Source of the DNA: Pseudomonas viciae
GTDB lineage: Bacteria > Pseudomonadota > Gammaproteobacteria > Pseudomonadales > Pseudomonadaceae
Direction of reading: 5' to 3'
Assembly (NCBI RefSeq): GCF_004786035.1
Contig: NZ_CP035088.1
Location: 2,950,001 to 3,014,000, forward strand
DNA: 64,000 nt
Within the stretch, counting starts at the first letter, position 1, and the number at the start of each line of letters is the position of its first letter. A program made the position numbers and the translations under genes. Of the stretch, positions 40,333-52,200 are shown piece after piece. Below the pieces are notes generated by a model. That model did not search any database. It saw nothing but the letters and a program-made list of their open reading frames with translations, and was not told the DNA's origin.

Positions 40333-40704
40333 TCAAGCCAGAATGCTTTTGACCTTGTCACGCAACTGATCGATGGAGAAGGGCTTGCCGATGACTGCCA
40401 TGCCTTCGGGTATATCGATGCTTTCGGCATAACCGCTGGCAAACAGGATCGCCAGCCCAGGCCGCACCAGGCAGGCCTGCTTCGCCAACTCACGCCCGTC
40501 CATTATCGGCAGGCCGACGTCCGTCATCATCAGGGCGATGGGTTGCTCGTCGTCGCGCAGAAACGCCAATGCCTGTTCACAACCGTCCGCTTCCAACACC
40601 TGGTATTCCAGCTCTTCCAGTACGTCGACGATCAACATACGCACAATGTCGTCGTCTTCGACGACCAGAATGGTGGGTTGAGTGGCGGGAGCGGGGATGG
40701 ACAT
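40333..40704 (-). CDS. Single-domain response regulator
   Basis: 123 residues from ATG 40704; the longer frame lacks a site. A receiver domain only: acidic pair VVEDDD (near 14-19), phospho-acceptor Asp62 in MMTDVGLPIMDG, Thr/Ser switch in LFASGY, Lys in IGKPFS. No output domain. It is divergent from the large hybrid kinase gene by 254 bp, and the sequence is of the type that pairs with hybrid kinases (DVGLP-type). Confidence 0.9.
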   Translation of the reverse strand: MSIPAPATQPTILVVEDDDIVRMLIVDVLEELEYQVLEADGCEQALAFLRDDEQPIALMMTDVGLPIMDGRELAKQACLVRPGLAILFASGYAESIDIPEGMAVIGKPFSIDQLRDKVKSILA

Positions 40705-40958
40705 AGTGGCATTCTCAAAATGGGGTCGGGAAGGGCATAAAAAAACCGCCTCATGCATGAGTAAGTGGCAAGGCAGCACAAGTTCCCTGAGTTGTACAAG
40801 AAAGGATCTATAGTACAAGAGCTGACAAGGATAGTCGCTTCTTGGCTACAAGGCAGTTCGCCGCAGGATTAGCGTCTTTGTCTCGTCAGAAATGTGGATC
40901 CAACCGATGTTTTTCGGGCAGAATCCATGGTTTTCAACTGTCCACCAAGGCCTTTTCC

Positions 40959-43900
40959 ATGACTCCTTCGTCTTCGGTTGACGAGCACAGTTTTCGCAAG
41001 CTTTTGAGCCGTAATATCAGCCTGCCGCTGGGCATGGGTGCCCTCAGCGCGGTGTTCTTCATCGTGTTGATCACCTATCTGCTGTCGGTCATTCAATTGG
41101 TCGGGCATACCGACCGGGTGATCAATAATGCCAACGAAGCGCTGAAACTGAGCGTGGACCTGGAGACCGGCATGCGTGGCTACCTCCTGAACGGCGATGA
41201 GCATTTCCTCGAGCCCTATGAAGTCGCCAAACCGCGGATTGCCGTGGCGCTGGAAACATTGTTGGAATTGACAGCCGACAACCCCATCCAGACCGACCGC
41301 CTGCACAAGGTACAAGCGCTTCAGGTGGAATGGGCCAATTACGCCCAGAGCCTGATCGACCTGCAACGCAGCAGCGGCGATTACAGGGGCATAGTGAGGG
41401 GTGGGCGCGGCAAACGCCTGACGGACGAGATTCGCAGGACCTTCGAAGACATCGTCGAGACCGAGCAGCACCTGCGCGCGCGGCGCAACGAGGAGGTGCG
41501 CGCCACCACCGTCTGGAGCATCTCCCTGTATCTGCTGTTTGTTGCCGCCGTCAGCGGGTTACTGGCCTACGTCGGTCGCCGGGACCTGCTGACCCTGTCC
41601 AGCAACTACAGCGCGAGCCTCAAAATCCAGCAGCAGAGCGCCTTGCACCTGGAGAAACAGGCTTGGCTGCGCAATGGCCAGACACTGCTGGCCGAGCAGG
41701 TCCTGGGGCAACTGACGCTGAACCTGCTGGGGCGCAACATCCTGCAGTTTTGTGCGCAGTACATGGGTACTGTCGTGGCGGCGCTTTATACGCGGGAGGA
41801 GAACGGCCTGCTCAAGCGCGTGGCCACTTATGGCATGTCTCGGGAGGAGGATGAACAGCATCAGGTGATCATCGTCGGTGAAGGCATTGTTGGCCAAGCC
41901 GTACAGCAAGGACGTCCGATCCGCCTGGATGATGTGCCCAACGATTACCTGAAAGTCAGCTCGGGACTGGGCCAGGGCTTGCCCAATAGCGTGGTGGTGG
42001 TGCCGACCAGCGACGACGACCGGATCAACGGTGTCATCGAACTGGGTTTCCTGCGCCCACTGAGCGAGCGCGACATCGAACTGCTGGAACTGGTGGCTGG
42101 CAATATTGGCACCTCCATTGAAGCAGCGCGTTATCGTCAACGCTTGCAGGAGGTGTTGGCCGAGACCCAACAGTTGAACGAAGAGCTGCAAGTCCAGCAG
42201 GAAGAGCTCAAGACGGCCAACGAAGAGCTGGAAGAACAATCACGCATCCTCAAGGAATCCCAGGTTCACCTGGAAACCCAGCAACTGGAACTGGAGCAGA
42301 CCAACGAACAATTGGCGCAGCAGCGCGACATCATGGACCAGAAGAACAGCGAGCTGAACCTGGCCCAGGTCCAATTGCAGGAACGTGCCGAAGAGCTGCA
42401 ACGTTCGAGCAAGTACAAGTCCGAGTTCCTGGCCAACATGTCCCATGAACTGCGGACACCGCTCAACAGTTCGCTGATCCTGTCCAAGCTGTTGGCGGAG
42501 AACCCGCAGCAAAACCTCAGCGAAGAGCAGGTCAAGTTTGCCGAGTCGATCTACTCCGCGGGCAACGACCTGTTGAATCTGATCAACGACATTCTTGATA
42601 TCTCCAAGGTCGAGGCCGGGAAACTGGAAGTGCGCCCGGAAAACACCAGTGTGCCGCGCTTGGTGGAAGGGTTGCACGATATGTTCAAGCCACTGGCGGC
42701 CGAAAAGGGCCTGGGTTTCGAGGTGGAGATGCTGGCTGACGCGCCGGCGATGTTGTACACCGACCGCCAGCGGTTGGAGCAGGTAATCAAGAACCTGTTA
42801 TCCAACGCCGTGAAGTTCACCGAGCAGGGGGCCGTGCGCCTGTCTGTTGCCGGCCAGCCGGGCTCAGGCATCGCGTTCATGGTGCGCGACTCGGGTATCG
42901 GTATCGCCGCCGATCAGCAGCAAAGCATCTTTGAGGCGTTCCGCCAGGCCGATGGCACCACCAACCGCCGTTACGGCGGCACCGGTCTGGGGTTGTCGAT
43001 TTCCCGCGACCTGGCCACGTTGTTGGGTGGTTCGATCTCGGTGACCAGTGAACCGGGGCAGGGCAGTGTGTTTACGCTGGTCTTGCCTGAACGCTATGTC
43101 GAGCCGGGGCCAACTCCGGCACAGCCGAGAGTATTCACCCCGACGGCCACCACGTTGGCGCCGACACCTCAGAAACCTGCGCCGGCGCCGCCGATCGCCC
43201 AGCTGGACACCTCCATCGCCCGCTTCGCCGATGACCGCGACAAGGCGCCGTTCGACACCCGCTGCATCCTGGTAATCGAAGATGAGTCTGAGTTTGCCCG
43301 GATCCTGTTCGACCTGGCCCATGAGCTCGGTTACCAGTGCCTGGTGGCCCACGGCGCCGATGAAGGCTTTGACCTGGCCTTGAAACTGAGCCCCGACGCT
43401 ATTCTGCTGGACATGCGCCTGCCGGATCATTCCGGGTTGACGGTATTGCAGCGGCTCAAGGAGCAGGCCGAAACCCGGCATATCCCGGTGCACGTCATTT
43501 CCGTCGAGGATCGCGTCGAAGCGGCAATGCACATGGGCGCTGTCGGTTATGCGGTCAAGCCGACCACCCGCGAGGAGCTCAAGGACGTGTTCGCCCGCCT
43601 GGAGGCCAAATTGACCCAAAAGGTCAAGCGCGTGCTGCTGGTGGAAGACGACGACTTGCAGCGTGACAGCATTACCCGCCTGATCGGCGACGATGACATC
43701 GAAATCACCGCCGTCGGCCTGGCCCAGCAAGCGCTCGACCTGCTGCGCACCAACGTCTATGACTGCATGATCATCGACCTCAAGCTGCCGGACATGCTGG
43801 GCAATGACCTGCTCAAGCGCATGTCCACCGAAGAGATCTGTTCGTTCCCTCCGGTGATCGTCTACACCGGGCGCAACCTGACCCGCGACGAAGAGGCCGA

Positions 43901-44441
43901 GCTGCGCAAGTATTCGCGTTCGATCATCATCAAGGGCGCCCGCTCGCCAGAGCGCCTGCTGGACGAGGTGACACTCTTTTTGCACAAAGTCGAATCCCGG
44001 TTGTCCCATGAACGGCAGCGGATGCTCAAGACCGCCCGCAGCCGCGACAAGGTTTTCGAAGGCCGCAAGGTGCTGCTGGTGGACGACGATGTGCGCAACA
44101 TCTTTGCCCTGACCAGCGCCCTGGAGGCGAAGGGGGCGATCGTGATCATCGGCCGTAACGGCTTTGAGGCGATCGACCGTTTGAATGAAGTCGAAGACAT
44201 CGACCTGGTGCTGATGGACGTGATGATGCCGGAGATGGACGGTTTTGAAGCCACCGCGTTGATCCGCAAGGATCCGCGCTGGCGCAAGTTACCGATCATT
44301 GCCGTGACGGCCAAGGCCATGAAGGATGATCAGGAGCGCTGCCTGGCGGCGGGTTCCAACGATTACCTGGCCAAGCCGATCGACCTGGATCGTCTGTTCT
44401 CACTGATTCGCGTGTGGTTGCCGAATATGGAAAGAATTTAG
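40959..44441 (+). CDS. CHASE3-GAF hybrid histidine kinase with three receivers
   Basis: 1160 residues from ATG 40959 (AAGG site). Two spans (about 22-45 and 184-206) flank a periplasmic CHASE3 domain. Cytoplasmic parts: GAF about 240-385, a long coiled coil rich in Gln/Glu/Leu (385-485), HisKA with His496 in MSHELRTPL, an HATPase with GGTGLGLSI, then receivers with Asp818, Asp940 and Asp1087. The first two receivers may gate phosphoflow and the third looks canonical (LMDVMMPEMDG). The stop overlaps the cheR GTG by one base. Confidence 0.93.
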   Translation: MTPSSSVDEHSFRKLLSRNISLPLGMGALSAVFFIVLITYLLSVIQLVGHTDRVINNANEALKLSVDLETGMRGYLLNGDEHFLEPYEVAKPRIAVALETLLELTADNPIQTDRLHKVQALQVEWANYAQSLIDLQRSSGDYRGIVRGGRGKRLTDEIRRTFEDIVETEQHLRARRNEEVRATTVWSISLYLLFVAAVSGLLAYVGRRDLLTLSSNYSASLKIQQQSALHLEKQAWLRNGQTLLAEQVLGQLTLNLLGRNILQFCAQYMGTVVAALYTREENGLLKRVATYGMSREEDEQHQVIIVGEGIVGQAVQQGRPIRLDDVPNDYLKVSSGLGQGLPNSVVVVPTSDDDRINGVIELGFLRPLSERDIELLELVAGNIGTSIEAARYRQRLQEVLAETQQLNEELQVQQEELKTANEELEEQSRILKESQVHLETQQLELEQTNEQLAQQRDIMDQKNSELNLAQVQLQERAEELQRSSKYKSEFLANMSHELRTPLNSSLILSKLLAENPQQNLSEEQVKFAESIYSAGNDLLNLINDILDISKVEAGKLEVRPENTSVPRLVEGLHDMFKPLAAEKGLGFEVEMLADAPAMLYTDRQRLEQVIKNLLSNAVKFTEQGAVRLSVAGQPGSGIAFMVRDSGIGIAADQQQSIFEAFRQADGTTNRRYGGTGLGLSISRDLATLLGGSISVTSEPGQGSVFTLVLPERYVEPGPTPAQPRVFTPTATTLAPTPQKPAPAPPIAQLDTSIARFADDRDKAPFDTRCILVIEDESEFARILFDLAHELGYQCLVAHGADEGFDLALKLSPDAILLDMRLPDHSGLTVLQRLKEQAETRHIPVHVISVEDRVEAAMHMGAVGYAVKPTTREELKDVFARLEAKLTQKVKRVLLVEDDDLQRDSITRLIGDDDIEITAVGLAQQALDLLRTNVYDCMIIDLKLPDMLGNDLLKRMSTEEICSFPPVIVYTGRNLTRDEEAELRKYSRSIIIKGARSPERLLDEVTLFLHKVESRLSHERQRMLKTARSRDKVFEGRKVLLVDDDVRNIFALTSALEAKGAIVIIGRNGFEAIDRLNEVEDIDLVLMDVMMPEMDGFEATALIRKDPRWRKLPIIAVTAKAMKDDQERCLAAGSNDYLAKPIDLDRLFSLIRVWLPNMERI

Positions 44442-45256
44442 TGGACCGTGACACTGATATTGAACTTCGGTTGTTGATCGAAGCGATCTACCTCAAGTAC
44501 AGCTACGATTTTCGCGATTACTCTGGTGCGTCCATCAAGCGCCGGGTCCACCATGCGCTGCGCCAGTTCGAGTGCCGGACCATCTCGGCACTGCAGGAGC
44601 GCGTGCTGCATGACCCGGGCGCGTTCATGCAGTTGCTGCAACTGCTGACGATTCCGGTCAGCGAGATGTTTCGCGACCCAGCGCATTTCCTGGCGATCCG
44701 CGAGGAAGTGGTGCCGCTGCTCAGGACGTATCCGTCGATCAAGATCTGGATCGCCGGGTGCAGCACAGGCGAGGAGGTCTACTCCATGGCGATTCTACTG
44801 CGTGAGGAGGGCCTGCTGGATCGCACGCTCATCTATGCCACTGATATCAATCCACGCTCACTGGAAAAAGCCAAGCAAGGCATTTTTTCCCTGGAAAACA
44901 TACGGGCCTACACCCAAAACTACCAGCGTGCCGGGGGGCGGCAATCGTTTGCCGATTACTACACCGCCGCCTACGATTACGCGATGTTTGATAAAACCCT
45001 GCGTGAGAACGTGACCTTTGCCGATCACAGCCTGGCAACGGATAGTGTTTTCTCAGAAACTCAGTTAATTTCATGTCGTAACGTATTGATATATTTCAAT
45101 AAAAAACTTCAGGATCGTGCGTTTGGATTGTTTCATGAGTCCCTCTGCCACCGCGGTTTCCTGGTGTTGGGCAGCAAGGAGACGCTGGATTTTTCGGCTT
45201 ACGGCCATCGATTCGACGCGCTGATCAAACAGGAACGGATCTATCGCAAGTTATGA
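44441..45256 (+). CDS. CheR-type protein-glutamate methyltransferase
   Basis: 271 residues from a GTG at 44441 (TAGTG overlap, GGAAAG site). N-terminal helical domain about 1-75, then the SAM-binding domain with IAGCSTGEEVYSMAI, YATDINPRSLEKA and the catalytic-site SCRNVLIYF. It methylates Glu residues on signalling proteins. No chemoreceptor or CheA/W is adjacent, so its target is probably the coiled-coil part of the neighbouring kinase. That is inference. Confidence 0.92.
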   Translation: MDRDTDIELRLLIEAIYLKYSYDFRDYSGASIKRRVHHALRQFECRTISALQERVLHDPGAFMQLLQLLTIPVSEMFRDPAHFLAIREEVVPLLRTYPSIKIWIAGCSTGEEVYSMAILLREEGLLDRTLIYATDINPRSLEKAKQGIFSLENIRAYTQNYQRAGGRQSFADYYTAAYDYAMFDKTLRENVTFADHSLATDSVFSETQLISCRNVLIYFNKKLQDRAFGLFHESLCHRGFLVLGSKETLDFSAYGHRFDALIKQERIYRKL

Positions 45257-45840
45257 ATTACATGATGGACAGATCCAGATCCCGAATCGAGGCCATTGTC
45301 GTTGGCGCCTCCGCTGGCGGCGTCGAAGCGCTGCTCAAAGTCTTCGGGCACCTGCGCAAGGGGTTCGGCGTGCCAATCCTGGTGGTGCTGCATTTGCCGG
45401 ATGAGCGCGATAGCCAACTGGCCAGTGTGTTCGGCCACCGGCTGGCCGTGCCGGTGGAAGAGGCGCGGGACAAGCAGGACGTCGTGCCGGGTACCTTGTA
45501 CGTGGCATCGCCCGGCTACCACTTGTCGGTCGAGGCCGACCGCAGTTTGTCGTTGAGCCTGGAGGACCCGGTGCACCATTCGCGGCCGTCCATTGATGTG
45601 CTGTTCGAGTCGGCCGCCGATGTCTACGGGGCGAACCTGCTGGCGGTGGTCCTCACCGGTGCCAATAGCGACGGTGCCAAGGGGCTGGCCAGGGTCCGGG
45701 AGCTGGGCGGCGTCACGGTGGTCCAGGATCCCGACGAAGCACACGTCTCGACCATGCCCGAAGCCGCGCTGGCTCTGCATGAGCCCGACCATATCCTTAC
45801 TTTGCAAGACATCGGCCAGTTGCTGGCCGGGCTGGAATGA
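45253..45840 (+). CDS. CheB-type methylesterase without receiver domain
   Basis: 195 residues, just the catalytic domain. Triad residues: Ser in VVGASAGGVEAL, His in VVLHLPDERD, Asp in VLTGANSDGAKG. Typical CheB is about 350 residues with an N-terminal receiver that regulates it; that is missing here. Overlaps cheR and the next kinase gene by 4 bp each. It presumably reverses CheR methylation on the same target. Confidence 0.92.
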   Translation: MNYMMDRSRSRIEAIVVGASAGGVEALLKVFGHLRKGFGVPILVVLHLPDERDSQLASVFGHRLAVPVEEARDKQDVVPGTLYVASPGYHLSVEADRSLSLSLEDPVHHSRPSIDVLFESAADVYGANLLAVVLTGANSDGAKGLARVRELGGVTVVQDPDEAHVSTMPEAALALHEPDHILTLQDIGQLLAGLE

Positions 45841-47126
45841 ACCACATGCCAAGAGATATTCAAGCCAAGCTGCTGATCGTTGACGATCTGCCGGAGAATC
45901 TGTTGGCCCTGGACGCGCTGATCAGGCGCGATGACCGCGAGGTCTTCACGGCCCTGTCGGCTGACGAAGCGCTGTCCCTGTTGCTGCAGCATGAGTTTGC
46001 CCTGGCCATCATTGATGTGCAGATGCCGGGAATGAACGGTTTCGAACTGGCCGAGCTGATGCGCGGTACTGAAAAGACCCGCAGCATCCCGATCATTTTT
46101 GTCAGCGCCGCGGGTCGTGAACGCAACTACGCCTTCACCGGTTATGAAAGCGGCGCGGTGGACTTCCTGCATAAGCCGTTGGACACCCACGCGGTCAAAA
46201 GCAAGGTCAATGTGTTCGTCGAGCTCTATCGCCAGAAAAAGGCAATGAAGGAACAGGTTGTTGCCCTGGAGCAGAGTCGCCGGGAGCAGGAGATTTTGTT
46301 GCAGCAGTTGGAGGCCACTCGCAGCGAGCTGGAGCAGGCAGTGCGGATGCGTGATGACTTTATGTCGATCGTCGCCCATGAGGTTCGTACTCCCCTCAAT
46401 GGCCTGATCCTCGAGACGCAACTGCGCAAGATGCACTTGGCCCGGGACAACGCCGCAGCCTTCAGCCTGGACAAGGTGCGGGCGATGGTCGAACGCGATG
46501 AGCGCCAGATCAAGAGCCTGATCCGCTTGATCGAAGACATGCTGGACGTCTCGCGGATTCGCACCGGTAAGTTGTCCATCCGTCCCTCGCGCTTCAACCT
46601 GACGGCGCTGGTGCAGAACCTGTTGCACAATTTCCAGCCACAGATCGCCGCTGCCGAATGCTCATTGATCTGCACCGCGGAGCCGGAAGTGGAGGGGTTC
46701 TGGGATGAGTTCCGGGTCGAACAGGTGGTGTCGAATCTGCTGACCAACGCCTTGCGCTATGGCGGTAGAAGCCCGATCGAGGTGCGCGTCTACAAGACGC
46801 AGGACCATGCTTGCGTCGAAGTCCAGGACCACGGCATTGGCATCAGCGAAGAAAACCAGAAGCGTATCTTCCAGCAATTCGAGCGGGTGTCGTCCAAGGC
46901 GGTTGCCTCCGGCCTGGGGTTGGGGCTGTTCATCTCCGAGCAGATTGTTAGCGCTCATGGGGGGACAATCACGGTCAATAGTCGCATCAACGAAGGGGCG
47001 TTATTCCGTGTTTGCCTGCCTTTGCTGAAAACCACCTTGCACAAAACCATCGAACAGACGCAACCTCTGGGTGACCCTAAGGTCGTATCAGCAGCTATTG
47101 ATCGAACAAAGGCTTCTCATGAGTGA
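45837..47126 (+). CDS. Receiver-histidine kinase
   Basis: 429-residue soluble protein. Receiver about 10-125 with Asp60 in IIDVQMPGMNG, a short coiled coil, HisKA with His181 in VAHEVRTPLNG, HATPase with NALRYG (N box), DHGIGI and GLGLGLFI. Being receiver-first, it can be a relay between the hybrid kinase and the small regulator that follows. Overlaps cheB by 4 bp and the next gene by 8 bp. Confidence 0.92.
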   Translation: MNHMPRDIQAKLLIVDDLPENLLALDALIRRDDREVFTALSADEALSLLLQHEFALAIIDVQMPGMNGFELAELMRGTEKTRSIPIIFVSAAGRERNYAFTGYESGAVDFLHKPLDTHAVKSKVNVFVELYRQKKAMKEQVVALEQSRREQEILLQQLEATRSELEQAVRMRDDFMSIVAHEVRTPLNGLILETQLRKMHLARDNAAAFSLDKVRAMVERDERQIKSLIRLIEDMLDVSRIRTGKLSIRPSRFNLTALVQNLLHNFQPQIAAAECSLICTAEPEVEGFWDEFRVEQVVSNLLTNALRYGGRSPIEVRVYKTQDHACVEVQDHGIGISEENQKRIFQQFERVSSKAVASGLGLGLFISEQIVSAHGGTITVNSRINEGALFRVCLPLLKTTLHKTIEQTQPLGDPKVVSAAIDRTKASHE

Positions 47127-47496
47127 AGATGCGCAAGACGTTGTACTGATCGTCGAGGATGACCCGTCGATCCTGATGGTGCTGTCTGCCTACCTGTCGG
47201 GCGAAGGGTATCGGATACTGCAGGCGGAAAACGGCGAGCAGGCGTTCGAGATCCTGGCAAGCAAGCCCCACCTGGACATGATGATCACCGACTTCCGCCT
47301 GCCGGGCGGCATCACCGGTGTGCAGATCGCTGAACCGGCGGTCCGGTTGCGCCCCGACCTGAAAGTCATTTTCATCAGCGGTTATCCGCAGGAAGTGCGC
47401 GAGACCGACAGCTCAATCACCCGCACGGCCCCGATCCTGGCAAAACCGTTCGACCTGGATGTGTTGCAGGAAATGATGCAGGCCATGCTGTCATAA
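47119..47496 (+). CDS. Single-domain response regulator
   Basis: 125 residues from ATG 47119. Receiver only: IVEDDPS, Asp58 in MMITDFRLPGG, FISGYP switch, LAKPF Lys. Last gene of the run cheR-cheB-kinase-regulator, overlapping the kinase stop. No DNA-binding domain, so the output is by protein contact or phosphotransfer. Confidence 0.9.
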   Translation: MSEDAQDVVLIVEDDPSILMVLSAYLSGEGYRILQAENGEQAFEILASKPHLDMMITDFRLPGGITGVQIAEPAVRLRPDLKVIFISGYPQEVRETDSSITRTAPILAKPFDLDVLQEMMQAMLS

Positions 47497-47509
47497 CCAT
47501 CTCACCTGC

Positions 47510-47611
47510 CCTGTAGGAGCTGCCGAGTGCAACGAGGCTGCGATCTCGCCCCAGACAATTGAGTCGCAAGCGAAAGATCAAAAGATCGCCGCCTTCGGCA
47601 GCCTCTACAGG
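47510..47611. repeat. Palindromic repeat of the GTAGGAGCTGCCG family
   Basis: CTGTAGGAGCTGCCGAGTGC at left and CGGCAGCCTCTACAG at right, with GCTGCGATCT/AAAGATCGCCGCC inner arms. A different family from the GTGGGAGC REPs. Its right end supplies the stop codon of the next (minus-strand) kinase gene. Confidence 0.75.
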
Positions 47612-49272
47612 ATCATTTCCCGCACCTTGGCCGTCAACAAATCAAAGGTGAACGGTTTGGTGATCATCTGCATGCCCGGGTCCAGGAAGCCGCCACGGAC
47701 CGCCGCATGCTCGGCATACCCGGTGATGAACAACACCCGCAGGTCCGGGCGGATCTGCCGGCCGATTTCCGCCAGTTGCCGGCCATTCATGCCCGGCAGG
47801 CCTACGTCGCTGATCAACAGATCGATGCGTTGGTCGGACTGGAGCAGCGGCATCGCGCCGTCGGCGTCGGCGGCCTCGACAAACGCATAGCCCAGTTCGC
47901 TCAACACGGCACTGACCAGCACCCGTACCGCCGGATCGTCCTCGACGATCAGCACCGTCTCGCCATCCCGCGCATGCGGCGCGTGCGGGGTGACGACCGG
48001 GGGCTCCTGTATCGCTTCACCGACGAAGCGTGGCAGGTAAAGATTGACCGTGGTGCCCTTGCCGACTTCGCTGTCGATCGTCACATGGCCACGCGATTGC
48101 TTGCTGAACCCATAGATCATCGACAGGCCCAGCCCGGTGCCCTGGCCGATGGGCTTGGTGGTGAAGAATGGGTCGAATGCGCGATTGATGACCGCTTCGG
48201 GCATGCCGCAACCAGTGTCCCGGACACTCAGCACGACATAGTCGCCGGGCTCCAGGTTACTGTAGGCGTCGGTGAAACCGGCATCCAAGTGTCGGTTGAA
48301 CGTCTGAACCACCAGCTCTCCGCCGTCCGGCATGGCGTCACGGGCGTTGAGTACCAGGTTAAGTAACGCGCTTTCCAGTTGGTTGGGGTCGGCTTCGGCG
48401 ATCCAGAGCTGATCGTCCAGTTGCATGTCCAGCCGCACGCTCTCATTGAGGCTGCGTTGCAGCAGCTCCCCCATGGACAGCACCAGTGTATTCATCTGCA
48501 CGGCTTTTGAATCCAGCGATTGTCGGCGGGAGAAGGCCAGCAAGCGATGGGTCAGGCCGGCGGCGCGGTTGGCCGAGGTCACGCCGAGGTCGATCAGGCT
48601 GTCCAGGTCCTCGGTGCGGCCCCGGGCCAGGCGCCGGCGCAGCAACTCAAGGCTGCCGATGATTCCGGTGAGCATGTTGTTGAAGTCATGGGCAATGCCG
48701 CCAGTGAGCTGGCCGACGGCTTCCATTTTCTGCGACTGGCGCAGGGCTTCTTCGTTATGCCGCAATTGGGCCGTGCGTTCCTCCACCTGCTGCTCGAGGG
48801 TTTCGAGGATCGTTTGCAGGCGCAGTTCACTGTTGCTGAGGTCGATCAGGCGGTCCCGGGCTTCGTACTGCCTTCGGCGACCGCGTACGGCAGTGGTCAC
48901 CAGGCTCACCAGGGTCACCGGGTGAAAAGGGCGCTCGAGGAACGTCACGTTACCCAGTTGGGCACCGATGCGGGCTGCCGGGTTCTGTTCAGGGCCGCCG
49001 TGGTGGGTCAACAGGACGATGGGCAGGTCGGACCAGGCCGGTTGCTGTTCGATATGCAGGAGCAGGGTTTCGAGGTCCGGCCCGACCAGGGCCTCCGAGG
49101 ACACCACCAACAGGCCGGCACCGTGCTCCAGTTCTTCGCACAGGTGCCCCAGATGGCGACAGATGAGGCCGGCAAAGCCGGCTTCGTTGAGGATCATCAG
49201 GGCGATCTGGCTGTCCCGTCCCAGCGGTGCGAGGATCAATGCCCGCTCCGACAGGGGCTCGGCCAACGTCAC
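47605..49272 (-). CDS. Hybrid kinase with pseudo-receiver N-terminus, coupled to KaiC-like gene
   Basis: 555 residues, soluble. Residues about 8-130 look like a receiver fold but read VVSSEAL where the phospho-Asp should be. A coiled coil leads to HisKA with His195 in [11 protein letters not shown], HATPase ([12 protein letters not shown]), then a C-terminal receiver with Asp489 in [12 protein letters not shown]. The ATGA overlap with the KaiC-like gene upstream indicates coupled translation. The stop codon lies within a palindromic repeat. Confidence 0.92.
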
Positions 49273-50786
49273 GGTAAGTCATCCTTGAGCAGCGGGTTAT
49301 CCGCTCCCACATAGTTTGGCACCCCACGCAATACGCCCTGGAACGCTTCCAGCGGTTCGCCGATGGTCATGCCCTGGGGGCTGATGCGGTATTCGCGAAT
49401 GGTGGATTCGTGGCTGCCGGTGCGTTTCTTGATGATGGATATCGCGCGGCGGACCTTGCCCAGCGCCTCGAAATAACGCAACAGAATCACCGTGTCGGCC
49501 AGGTAGGTAATGTCCACAGGCGCCTGCATGTCGCCCACCAGGCCGTGTTGTGCCACGGTCATGAAGGTCGCCGCGCCCCTGCGGTTCAGATAGAGCAGCA
49601 GCTCATGCACATGCAGCACCAGGGCGTTTTCCTCCGGCATGGCGGCCTGGTAGCCGTTGATACTGTCGATCACAACGGTCTTGATGTTGCCTTCATCGAC
49701 GCAGCTGCGCACCCGATGTGAGAATTCGCCGGGGGACAGCTCGGCGGCGTCCACCTGTTCGATCACCAGGTTTCCGGTCCTTCTCAGCGCCTCCAGGTCG
49801 ATGCCTACGTTCTTCATGCGCTCGAACAGCAGGCCCAACTCTTCGTCGAAGATGAACAGCGCGGCTTTCTCGCCGCGCTGCACGGCAGCGGCGGCAAAGA
49901 TCATCGAAATCAAGGACTTGCCGGTGCCGGCGGGACCCAGGATCAACGTGCTGGAGCCGGTCTCGATACCGCCACCGAGCAGGGCGTCCACGCCATCCAG
50001 GCCGCTGGAGAGCTGTTGGCGCAGGTACTGCCCGCGGTGTTCGGCTGCCACCAGGCGCGGAAAAACATGGATGCCGTCGCCCATGATGGTGAAATCATGA
50101 AAGCCACCGCGGTATTTTTGCCCGCGATATTTCACCACCCGGATCCGCCGCCGCTCGGCGCCATAATTGGGGGTCAGTTCTTCCAGGCGGATCACCCCGT
50201 GGGCGACGCTGTGCACGGTCTTGTCCAGGGACTCGGTGGTCAAGTCGTCCAGCAGCAACACCGTAGCGTCATAGCGCACGAAGTAGTGTTTGATCGCCAG
50301 GATCTGGCGGCGATAGCGCAGGGAGCTTTGCGCCAGCAGGCGGATCTCCGACAGGCTGTCGAGCACCACCCGGGTCGGCTTGACGCGCTCGACCACTTCG
50401 AAGATCTGGCGGGTCGCTTCGCCCAGCTCCAGGTCCGAGGAGTACAACAGGCTTTGTTGATGCTCGGCATTGAGCAGGCTTTCGGGCGGGGTCAGCTCGA
50501 AAATATGAACGTTCTCATCGATGGTCCAGCCGTGGGATGCCGCGCCCTGGCGCAGTTCACGCTCGGTTTCCGACAGCGTGATGTACAACGAACGTTCACC
50601 GGCTTTGGCGCCGGCCAGCAGGAATTGCAACGCGACCGTGGTCTTGCCGGTCCCCGGTTCCCCTTCCAGCAGGAACACATGGCCGCGGGACAGGCCACCG
50701 CAAAGGATATCGTCCAACCCTTCAATACCGGTGGCGGCTTTTGCGCTGATCAACTCAATAGATGTAGACAAAAATAGCCCTCTCAT
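49269..50786 (-). CDS. Double-domain KaiC-like RecA-family ATPase
   Basis: 505 residues with two KaiC domains, each with Walker A: GEPGTGKTT (42-50) and GPAGTGKS (284-291), plus Walker B-like VVLDSLSEIRLL and VVIDSINGYQ. Acidic catalytic positions appear as SETE and FDEE. By hand alignment the cyanobacterial Ser431/Thr432 pair corresponds to Thr-Tyr here (DITYLADT). No kaiA or kaiB is near. The ATG at 50786 lacks a ribosome site; a TTG at 50771 has GAGAGGG before it and may be the true start. Confidence 0.92.
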   Translation of the reverse strand: MRGLFLSTSIELISAKAATGIEGLDDILCGGLSRGHVFLLEGEPGTGKTTVALQFLLAGAKAGERSLYITLSETERELRQGAASHGWTIDENVHIFELTPPESLLNAEHQQSLLYSSDLELGEATRQIFEVVERVKPTRVVLDSLSEIRLLAQSSLRYRRQILAIKHYFVRYDATVLLLDDLTTESLDKTVHSVAHGVIRLEELTPNYGAERRRIRVVKYRGQKYRGGFHDFTIMGDGIHVFPRLVAAEHRGQYLRQQLSSGLDGVDALLGGGIETGSSTLILGPAGTGKSLISMIFAAAAVQRGEKAALFIFDEELGLLFERMKNVGIDLEALRRTGNLVIEQVDAAELSPGEFSHRVRSCVDEGNIKTVVIDSINGYQAAMPEENALVLHVHELLLYLNRRGAATFMTVAQHGLVGDMQAPVDITYLADTVILLRYFEALGKVRRAISIIKKRTGSHESTIREYRISPQGMTIGEPLEAFQGVLRGVPNYVGADNPLLKDDLP

Positions 50787-50924
50787 GACTAGGGAAGTGG
50801 GCAGCAGGCTGGAGTACGCCTGAGAATGAACTGCCTGAACACTTGACCTTTTGCGATGATGGCGGTTCCGCTTTCTGTTGCAAAACGAGGTCTACTGCAC
50901 AATTTCTGGCTGGTGGTGCGATGC

Positions 50925-51980
50925 CTACAGGCCTTGCTGCAAGGCCGGATCGTCGGGGTTGAGCTGCTCGAGTTGGGCCAGCAGGATCTGCACATTCTGC
51001 AATTGTCCGGTCTCCTTCCAGTAGTTGATCAACAACACTCGGGCCTTGCGGTCGGCGGGGTAGCGCTGGACGATTTCCTGTAGCTGTTTCTGCGCGGCTT
51101 CCAGTTCCTGCTCGGCGTGCAGGGTGGTTGCCAGGTCATAACGGTATGTGCGGTTATTGGGTTCAAGTTCCACGGCTTTTGCCAGGCCCAGTACCGCGTA
51201 TTCGTTCTGGCCATGTTGCAGCAGCCACAGGCCCAATGCATGTTGCAGATAAGCCGAGTCCGGTTGGGTTTGCAACTGCCGGGCGAGCAAATGTCTTGCG
51301 GCTTCGCCCTGGCCCTGTTTGTCCAGCACTTCGATCTGCATGACCAACGCCGGCAGGTTGTCCGGTTGCAGGCGCAAGGTGTGTTCCAGCGCCTGCTGGG
51401 CCTTTTTCAGCTCGGCGTTGTGCAAGTGCAGGCGGGCAAGCTGATAGTGCGACTCGGCCGTTTGCGGGCCGTCTTCAAGCACCTGCTCCCAGGTGTCGAT
51501 GGCGAGCTGCATCGCGCCGAAATACAAGCCGAGGTCATCCGGTGACGAACCCAGTAGTGCGTTCACGGCGGCGAATCGGACGCTCTGGTCATCATCATCG
51601 AGCAACGGTCCCAGCAATAGGCTGCGTTGGCCTGTCGGCACCAGCCCGACGATGCTGCCAATGGCCGCTCGACGTACATCTGGCGATTCGCTGTGCAGGT
51701 CCGCGGCCGCCAGTTTGAGGGCCTGAGGGCTTGGGTAGTTGGGCAACTCGGCGTGCAGCCACACGCGCCGCTTGGGTGAGAGGTCCGGGCGTCCCAGTTG
51801 TTGATAAAGCATTCGCGCCGCGCCCGGCTGCCCGTTGCGGGCCTTTTCCAGGGCTTCACTGTAGCCACGCTTGATCGCCTCGGGGATCTGCGGGGTAGTG
51901 CTGCGTAGCCACACCGCGAGGAGACCGATCACCAACAGGACGGACAGGCTGATAAGCAGATAGCGGCGGGGCAGATGCAT
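50925..51980 (-). CDS. Membrane-anchored TPR/HEAT-like repeat protein
   Basis: 351 residues from ATG 51980. One N-terminal span (about 7-27), then a HEAT-like part (residues 90-150, DVRRAAIGSIVGLV and SVRFAAVNALLG) and tetratricopeptide repeats from about 165 to the end (AESHYQLARLHLHNAELKKA, YRYDLATTLHAEQEL). Probably a periplasmic scaffold. Same strand as the KaiC-like gene, 138 bp upstream of it. Whether it belongs to the signalling set is unclear. Confidence 0.82.
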   Translation of the reverse strand: MHLPRRYLLISLSVLLVIGLLAVWLRSTTPQIPEAIKRGYSEALEKARNGQPGAARMLYQQLGRPDLSPKRRVWLHAELPNYPSPQALKLAAADLHSESPDVRRAAIGSIVGLVPTGQRSLLLGPLLDDDDQSVRFAAVNALLGSSPDDLGLYFGAMQLAIDTWEQVLEDGPQTAESHYQLARLHLHNAELKKAQQALEHTLRLQPDNLPALVMQIEVLDKQGQGEAARHLLARQLQTQPDSAYLQHALGLWLLQHGQNEYAVLGLAKAVELEPNNRTYRYDLATTLHAEQELEAAQKQLQEIVQRYPADRKARVLLINYWKETGQLQNVQILLAQLEQLNPDDPALQQGL

Positions 51981-52098
51981 GCAGGAAATCCATAACCAGA
52001 AGCGCGAAATGTCGCAAGCTTCGGCCAGGTGCGGGCCTGAGTCAAACCTTAAGGACGCTTCGGGTGATGCCGTGGGCTTCAACCAGACCGCGTCATCG

Positions 52099-52200
52099 TT
52101 GATCGCGAGCAAGCTCGCTCCCACAGGGATTGGTTGTGGAAGCAGACTTTGTGATTGCCCGCAAACCAATGTGGGAGCGAGCTTGCTCGCGATGGCGGCG
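52099..52200. repeat. Two REP units in reversed arrangement
   Basis: CGCGAGCAAGCTCGCTCCCACA at the left and TGTGGGAGCGAGCTTGCTCGCG at the right. Here the CCCAC ends face each other, opposite to the REPINs elsewhere in this window. Confidence 0.8.

Follow-up and report, generated by a model that had tools for sequence, protein, structure and literature searches.

The window is a 64,000-nucleotide stretch of the 6.70 Mb Pseudomonas viciae genome (G000:C1:2950001-3014000), and positions given without such a prefix are counted from its first letter. Two groups of signaling genes converge in it. The plus-strand run, judged by its gene content and order, is a cluster of the cfcABCDE type described for Pseudomonas putida. 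The minus-strand group contains a KaiC homolog and a histidine kinase headed by a pseudo-receiver. We favor a reading in which the cfc cluster acts on CfcR, a regulator of cyclic di-GMP (c-di-GMP), beside a switch composed of KaiC and the pseudo-receiver kinase that possibly shares this output. The names recU and kaiH in the list below are labels given here.

40333..40818, minus strand: recU, a lone REC protein divergent from cfcA, with a KaiH-type receiver (Pfam Response_reg, 2e-13).
40959..44441, plus strand: cfcA, a hybrid kinase of the form CHASE3-GAF-coiled coil-HisKA-HATPase followed by three REC domains (Pfam), with the phospho-histidine at residue 496.
42123..42416, plus strand: CfcA coiled coil, residues 389-486, a candidate CheR/CheB target on grounds of conservation.
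44441..45256, plus strand: cfcB, a CheR methyltransferase (Pfam CheR, 4e-39; CheR_N, 1e-9).
45253..45840, plus strand: cfcC, a CheB methylesterase domain without REC (Pfam CheB_methylest, 2e-55).
45837..47126, plus strand: cfcD, a REC-HisKA-HATPase kinase (Pfam).
47119..47496, plus strand: cfcE, a lone REC protein with a KaiH-type receiver (Pfam), starting at ATG 47119.
47605..49272, minus strand: kaiH, a pseudo-receiver-HisKA-HATPase-REC kinase (Pfam), overlapping kaiC by 4 bp.
48853..49272, minus strand: KaiH pseudo-receiver, a candidate KaiC-coupling domain by its predicted fold and constant place behind KaiC.
49269..50786, minus strand: kaiC, a two-domain KaiC homolog (Pfam KaiC ATPase, two stretches, 1e-75; PDB KaiC chains, best 1.9e-60).
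50925..51983, minus strand: TPR/HEAT-repeat protein (Pfam), a looser neighbor upstream of kaiC.

The cfcA frame (40842-44441, plus strand) opens at TTG 40842, and ATG 40959 is the likelier start. Similarly, the cfcB frame opens at GTG 44414, and GTG 44441 is likelier, with ortholog rows among the basis for this choice. With these starts, cfcA and cfcB overlap by 1 bp (28 bp with the first GTG), cfcB and cfcC by 4 bp, cfcC and cfcD by 4 bp, and cfcD and cfcE by 8 bp with ATG 47119. A preliminary description of this stretch, made from its letters alone, had reported four plus-strand overlaps of 1-8 bp and the 4 bp overlap of KaiC and kinase. These hold, given the likely starts, and its gene positions and domain list are reproduced by Pfam. 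It did not name the TPR/HEAT gene, whose frame (50925-52169, likely ATG near 51983) lies mostly inside the range that it covered. The arrangement is not due to chance, because the identical order recurs at neighbor loci.

The same description called the island uncharacterized, but the plus-strand run matches a published cluster. In P. putida, cfcABCDE is presented as a five-gene cluster headed by the hybrid kinase CfcA, in which the CheR and CheB proteins are CfcB and CfcC (PMC4951495). CfcA of strain KT2440 is PP_3761 and forms a c-di-GMP pathway with CfcR (PMC4951495, PMC6849547); there, CfcA is shown to activate CfcR in vivo. In the accounts of this pathway, cyclase activity of CfcR requires H496 of CfcA (PMC4951495) and also D65 of CfcR itself. 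Counted from ATG 40959, the phospho-histidine of the P. viciae CfcA is residue 496, equal to that of P. putida. As far as the published description goes, the likeness to the KT2440 cluster covers the number of genes, the CHASE3/GAF hybrid kinase in first place, the CheR and CheB genes inside the run, and H496; the divergent lone receiver recU upstream of cfcA is a difference. The assignment to the cfcABCDE type is made because the same five kinds of genes stand in the same arrangement and because H496 is shared.

No DNA-binding output protein is encoded at the locus, as had been noted before, and the gene for CfcR, the likely output, lies far from it. Frames were scanned at 20 of the 43 GGDEF matches in the genome, with three of these frames cut at the front. 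A 743-residue frame 3.2 Mb away (G000:C1:6221911-6224139) has the architecture REC-PAS-GGDEF-EAL, and its receiver scores strongly (2.5e-26); the likely start is at residue 37, and D63 is at the phosphorylation site. Among the other scanned frames, two (L038 and L042) combine a weaker receiver with GGDEF-EAL, and one (L047) is REC-GGDEF without EAL. When compared with the receivers of the island only, the receiver of the 743-residue frame is closest to that of CfcD (54% over 121 residues), followed by CfcA receiver 3 (43%). In P. putida, the CfcD receiver is likewise reported as the best genome-wide match to the CfcR receiver, at 48% (PMC4951495), and there too the GGDEF/EAL regulator is encoded elsewhere. 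The distant REC-PAS-GGDEF-EAL frame is most likely CfcR, and would supply the output that the preliminary description lacked.

The KaiC homolog aligns with solved KaiC chains in the PDB across both domains, and its two KaiC domains have Walker A motifs. Residues T427-Y428, S72-E73, and D314-E315 are invariant in 38 of 38 sequences. We take the first of these to be the phosphosite pair and the other two to stand at the catalytic pairs of canonical clock KaiC. The protein fails the canonical clock pattern in these 38 sequences, having neither an S/T phosphosite pair nor EE catalytic pairs in both domains. Some KaiC3 proteins are reported to carry a tyrosine at the second phosphosite (PMC5520375). 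KaiB has no match in the genome, and the same search finds KaiB in Synechococcus. The 80 best named relatives of this KaiC are all from Pseudomonas, including Pseudomonas sp. Q11 and P. tehranensis at 98% and P. corrugata at 93%. A second KaiC in the genome (G000:C1:5618610-5620031, L238) is 28% identical to the first, and the adjoining 348-residue kinase frame has no pseudo-receiver.

KaiH begins with a domain that has no Pfam family above the cut-off and no NCBIfam family. Its predicted structure is a (beta-alpha)5 fold whose strands and helices follow one another as in a receiver (predicted local distance difference test score 86.5), its fold matches in the PDB are receivers in general, and a 31-sequence alignment is receiver-like. 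S58 ends strand 3 where the phospho-aspartate would sit, and relatives have S or A there. KaiA and CikA are not among the best 50 PDB fold matches. The pseudo-receivers of these two cyanobacterial proteins are described as regulatory (PMC12632262). The kinase core of KaiH is nearest to PRK13557 and CckA, below the NCBIfam cut-offs. A PAS domain lies between the pseudo-receiver and the kinase core in 12 of 40 KaiH sequences, all of which retain the pseudo-receiver. In its own genome, the domain occurs once (300 bits, with the next match at 25 bits).

The place of this domain relative to KaiC is constant. In a phylum sample of 299 genomes, KaiC (E ≤ 1e-100) is present in 26, of which 22 are outside the genus (24 matches). 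At all 24 loci outside the genus, a KaiH-like gene is located directly downstream from KaiC on the same strand, and each time it carries the pseudo-receiver (71-186 bits). Eight of these loci supplied sequences for the pseudo-receiver model, and the other 16 did not. The domain is also found on a Sphingobium plasmid and at four of four genus loci where the identity of KaiC is 50-52%. The partner kinase core varies, being HisKA with a C-terminal REC in 10 of the 17 partners scanned, some with PAS or GAF, and HWE without REC in seven.

Plasmids show the same pairing. The pseudo-receiver was found at 260 places in 224 plasmid records and KaiC at 312 places in 258 records (1e-20). Among the matches listed, 104 records have the domain and 65 have KaiC, and in all 59 shared records the pseudo-receiver follows KaiC. 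In 58 of them it begins, on the strand of KaiC, 2-72 bases past the end of that match, and in the other the pairing depends on joining the two ends of the record. At six of six other plasmid records inspected, the domain follows a KaiC-sized "ATPase domain-containing protein." The plasmid records are not independent of each other because many are near-copies. Plasmids of Alphaproteobacteria and Burkholderiales, including some conjugative ones, commonly carry KaiC-kinase pairs, and a YfiR family gene is located near the pair on Sphingobium indicum plasmid pSRL1 (L034). Among 40 cfc loci without KaiC, the pseudo-receiver is strong only at the two where kaiH is kept (L093 and L094), and L096 has a remnant. 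The pseudo-receiver is probably the contact or coupling domain of KaiC on the kinase, and its constancy behind KaiC on differing kinases makes it a likely KaiC contact point outside cyanobacteria.

The cfc cluster and the KaiC pair are two dissociable modules that are persistently adjacent. In a genus sample of 199 genomes, KaiC is present at ≥75% identity in 109, a few of these copies being truncated or split. KaiC lies within 15 kb of CheB in 102 of the 105 genomes with a listed CheB match, always downstream and convergent. The distance is 18.8 kb in G140, and three further genomes (G149, locus L089; G058, locus L087; G114, locus L088) are also cfc-linked. In total, 106 of the 109 KaiC-bearing genomes have the pair adjoining cfc. 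The modules are separated by 161 kb in G043 and by 1.04 Mb in G020, where cfcE remained with kaiH and recU-cfcABCD are found elsewhere. G083, considered as a KaiC genome without cfc, was rejected as such since its cfcA sits on another contig; it is not counted among the 106.

Outside the genus, each module stands alone. CfcA (E ≤ 1e-200) is present in 39 of the 299 phylum-sample genomes, and 20 of these loci were fetched, one of them (L265) inside the genus. The genes cfcA, cfcB, and cfcC occur together at 13 of the 20, with cfcD at 12 of those 13 and an extra frame between cfcB and cfcC at L281. The remaining seven comprise a locus with cfcA only (L268), one with no cfcC match (L275), and five with large kinases lacking CheR and CheB (L276-L280). 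KaiC is at none of the 20 fetched loci. Conversely, no cheR- or cheB-like genes were found at the 19 outside-genus KaiC loci read at 13.6-19 kb, or in a 25 kb Sphingobium stretch. Three genomes outside the genus (G402, G490, and G221) have both cfcABC and KaiC, on different contigs.

The simplest alternative to our reading is that the KaiC pair and cfc are pure neighbors without shared function, an ancestral arrangement kept by chance. This is possible, if somewhat unlikely. It agrees with the independence of the modules outside the genus and their separation in G020 and G043, and with the history of kaiC inside the genus. On a quick CfcA tree of 55, drawn from a non-random sample, the kaiC label is clustered by kinship and changes eight times with cfc retained, at least six of these changes being forced by well supported branches. 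The KaiC pair is lost with cfc intact at L095, L096, and L101, which hold only kaiH or kaiC pieces. Against chance retention stands the turnover of the surrounding genes. At 31 loci chosen for linkage and read on the kaiC side only (two are cut short and several reach 2-3 kb past the TPR gene), the TPR gene is next to the island in 22, and the window genes beyond it adjoin the island in one, the closest relative. Yet cfc and kaiHC stay linked in the 106 genomes, even though the CheB-KaiC distance is longer in 21 of the 102.

The preliminary description proposed the opposite extreme, one integrated and obligate unit combining KaiC timing, a phosphorelay, and methylation memory. The conserved adjacency and the receiver kinship described below favor this view, as does the presence of CfcA in all 109 KaiC-bearing genomes versus 74 of 90 others, counts that ignore kinship. 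However, the KaiC pair has disappeared several times while cfc was preserved, cfcC is broken (L087) or absent (L088) where kaiC and cheR are kept, and the genome has no KaiB match. We consider such a unit improbable, and a single obligate module does not survive the finding that each half recurs alone outside the genus. The co-conservation that the description proposed to look for is present within the genus, as adjacency in 106 of 109 KaiC-bearing genomes, and is absent at the loci read outside it, where the KaiC pair and the Che run are apart.

CfcB and CfcC most likely tune CfcA through reversible methylation of its glutamate-rich coil, as far as conservation can suggest. In 37 CfcA sequences, 69% of coil positions are invariant, versus 29% in CHASE3 and GAF and 55% in HATPase, and the coils of CfcD (28%) and KaiH (44%) are less invariant. 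Such conservation is consistent with a role that depends on the sequence itself, for example methylation, for which it is circumstantial support, and could alternatively reflect signal relay to HisKA. CfcC keeps S20, H47, and D140 in 53 of 53 sequences, and we presume these to be its catalytic residues. It has no N-terminal receiver, and neither CheA nor CheW is encoded beside the CheR and CheB genes. The search for CheW domains, CheA included, gave no match in the window, confirming the earlier statement on their absence, and 17 in the genome, the nearest about 0.4 Mb off. That CfcB and CfcC are a spare adaptation pair acting on ordinary chemoreceptors, which the retained catalytic residues and the chemosensory systems marked by these 17 matches might allow, is most improbable given the receiver-less CheB, the lack of CheA and CheW nearby, the company of the CfcA kinase at 13 of 20 loci, and a P. 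putida report that describes a chemotaxis role as ruled out, citing Garcia-Fontana 2013 (PMC4951495).

Several observations concern the Che-type proteins and CfcA. CfcC evolves fastest of the five cfc products; its median identity over 52 neighbor loci is 68%, compared with 86% for CheR, 79% for CfcA, 80% for CfcD, and 74% for CfcE. Two genomes with a damaged or missing cfcC (broken at L087 of G058, no match at L088 of G114) keep cfcA and cfcB, and in G083 and G183 cfcA is present with only a distant best CheB match. Genomes with CheR but without CheB would be natural cases in which to examine whether methylation takes place. An identification of CfcB as CheR1 of P. putida was dropped, cheR1 being placed in a wsp-like cluster by the source at hand (PMC6363813). 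The CfcA-like hybrid kinases of 1900-2120 residues at L276 and L280 have 8-11 HAMP domains and three receivers. A CheB-CheR-kinase fusion was considered for proteins of this size and rejected, since Pfam on two of five revealed poly-HAMP arrays instead and a test for fusions found none.

The receivers of the island suggest how the two modules could communicate. The C-terminal receiver of KaiH has 65 matches in the genome, itself included. The highest-scoring others are two hybrid kinases, at 164 and 79.4 bits, then recU (78.9 bits) and cfcE (75.7 bits), and the next scores 52.8 bits. RecU is 46% identical (fourth of 65) and CfcE 37% (fifth of 65), and these two, encoded at the two ends of cfc, are the closest stand-alone relatives of the KaiH receiver. 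The CfcD and CfcR receivers form a separate group from the KaiH-type receivers. At L271, which belongs to another class, the position of cfcD after cfcABC is taken by a REC-kinase-REC protein that shares 52% identity with KaiH across 488 residues. The kinship of the KaiH receiver with CfcE and RecU is circumstantial support for crosstalk through these lone receivers.

Taken together, we think it probable that a cfc cluster acting on CfcR lies beside a KaiC-pseudo-receiver kinase switch, with an output that the two possibly share. The membrane kinase CfcA would autophosphorylate at H496, and its phosphoryl group would reach the CfcR receiver either directly or via the CfcA receivers and CfcD. 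Phosphorylated CfcR would then raise c-di-GMP and promote biofilm formation, while CfcB and CfcC would adjust CfcA by methylating and demethylating its coil. On the other strand, KaiC, working without KaiB, may act on the pseudo-receiver of KaiH and thereby set its kinase activity. KaiH would phosphorylate its own receiver and probably CfcE and RecU, leading to control of biofilm and stress responses. The identities, gene orders, conservation, and dissociation used here, as well as the predicted fold and place of the pseudo-receiver, come from this analysis; the roles of CfcA H496 and CfcR D65 come from P. putida.

Several results weigh against parts of this reading. CfcA and CfcR agree loosely in presence among the 199 genus genomes (both in 171, CfcA only in 12, CfcR only in 11, neither in 5, at cut-offs of 1e-250 and 1e-150 and with counts that may include paralogs), and because the agreement is loose their co-occurrence is given little weight. 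The CfcA coil, at 69%, is not more conserved than the CfcA receivers (67%-74% invariant) or HisKA (82%). In P. putida, the crinkle phenotype persists in mutants of cfc genes apart from cfcA, according to an unpublished result mentioned by the authors (PMC4951495), so CheR and CheB would be at most modulators there. The receiver of a hybrid kinase encoded elsewhere (2323452) is 68% identical to that of KaiH, closer than CfcE or RecU. Moreover, at loci without kaiC, recU persists in 18 of 20 and cfcE in 19 of 20, which suggests that these lone receivers have other partners. At two loci (L093 and L094), kaiC is missing although kaiH is retained together with the pseudo-receiver. Finally, the kinases adjoining a distant KaiC (26%-28% identical; L238 and L245) have no pseudo-receiver, and the rule is therefore limited to one KaiC subfamily.

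A more specific form of the favored reading is quite doubtful. It would be a KaiB-free switch in which a dedicated pseudo-receiver, mounted on exchangeable HisKA or HWE cores, reads the ATP or phosphorylation state of KaiC, and in which KaiH, through CfcE and RecU, would set c-di-GMP via CfcR together with a CheR/CheB memory on the CfcA coil. If the KaiC pair does talk to cfc, common soil bacteria would hold a KaiB-free KaiC whose output is defined, namely c-di-GMP and biofilm. Likewise, CheR methylation of a histidine-kinase coil, if true, would extend methylation adaptation beyond chemoreceptors.

Both halves resemble known systems in part. Like the KaiABC clock with KaiA and CikA, the minus-strand group has a two-domain KaiC and a kinase with a pseudo-receiver. 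In contrast to that clock, there is no KaiB match in this genome, the pseudo-receiver heads the kinase following KaiC, and KaiC has a T-Y phosphosite pair, S-E and D-E in place of the catalytic pairs, and a short C-terminus. KaiC-like proteins of environmental Pseudomonas, the same genus and protein family as here, are the subject of work by Terrettaz et al. from 2023 (doi 10.1111/1462-2920.16330), whose title points to stress resistance and biofilm formation. No paper linking kaiC with cfcA was found in the open-license literature. KaiC of Rhodobacter sphaeroides also shares its operon with a histidine kinase, but that kaiBC operon includes KaiB (PMC5520375), which is absent here. The Wsp pathway similarly ties CheR- and CheB-type proteins to c-di-GMP and biofilm; unlike Wsp, the island has no receptor, CheA, CheW, or WspR. 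Elsewhere in the genome, near 1.24 Mb, a CheB-CheW-GGDEF cluster distinct from the island looks Wsp-like.

The gap between the two modules also has features of its own. Where cfcE and kaiH converge, the space separating them (window positions 47497-47604) holds an inverted repeat that resembles a Pseudomonas repetitive extragenic palindromic (REP) element. At three other loci, among the few longer gaps opened, a frame of 1315-1584 residues separates cfcE from kaiH (L072:8266-12207, L073:8250-12998, and L074:6865-11595). Pfam gave no match for the two of these frames that were scanned. At L083, a DUF2599 frame fills the gap instead.

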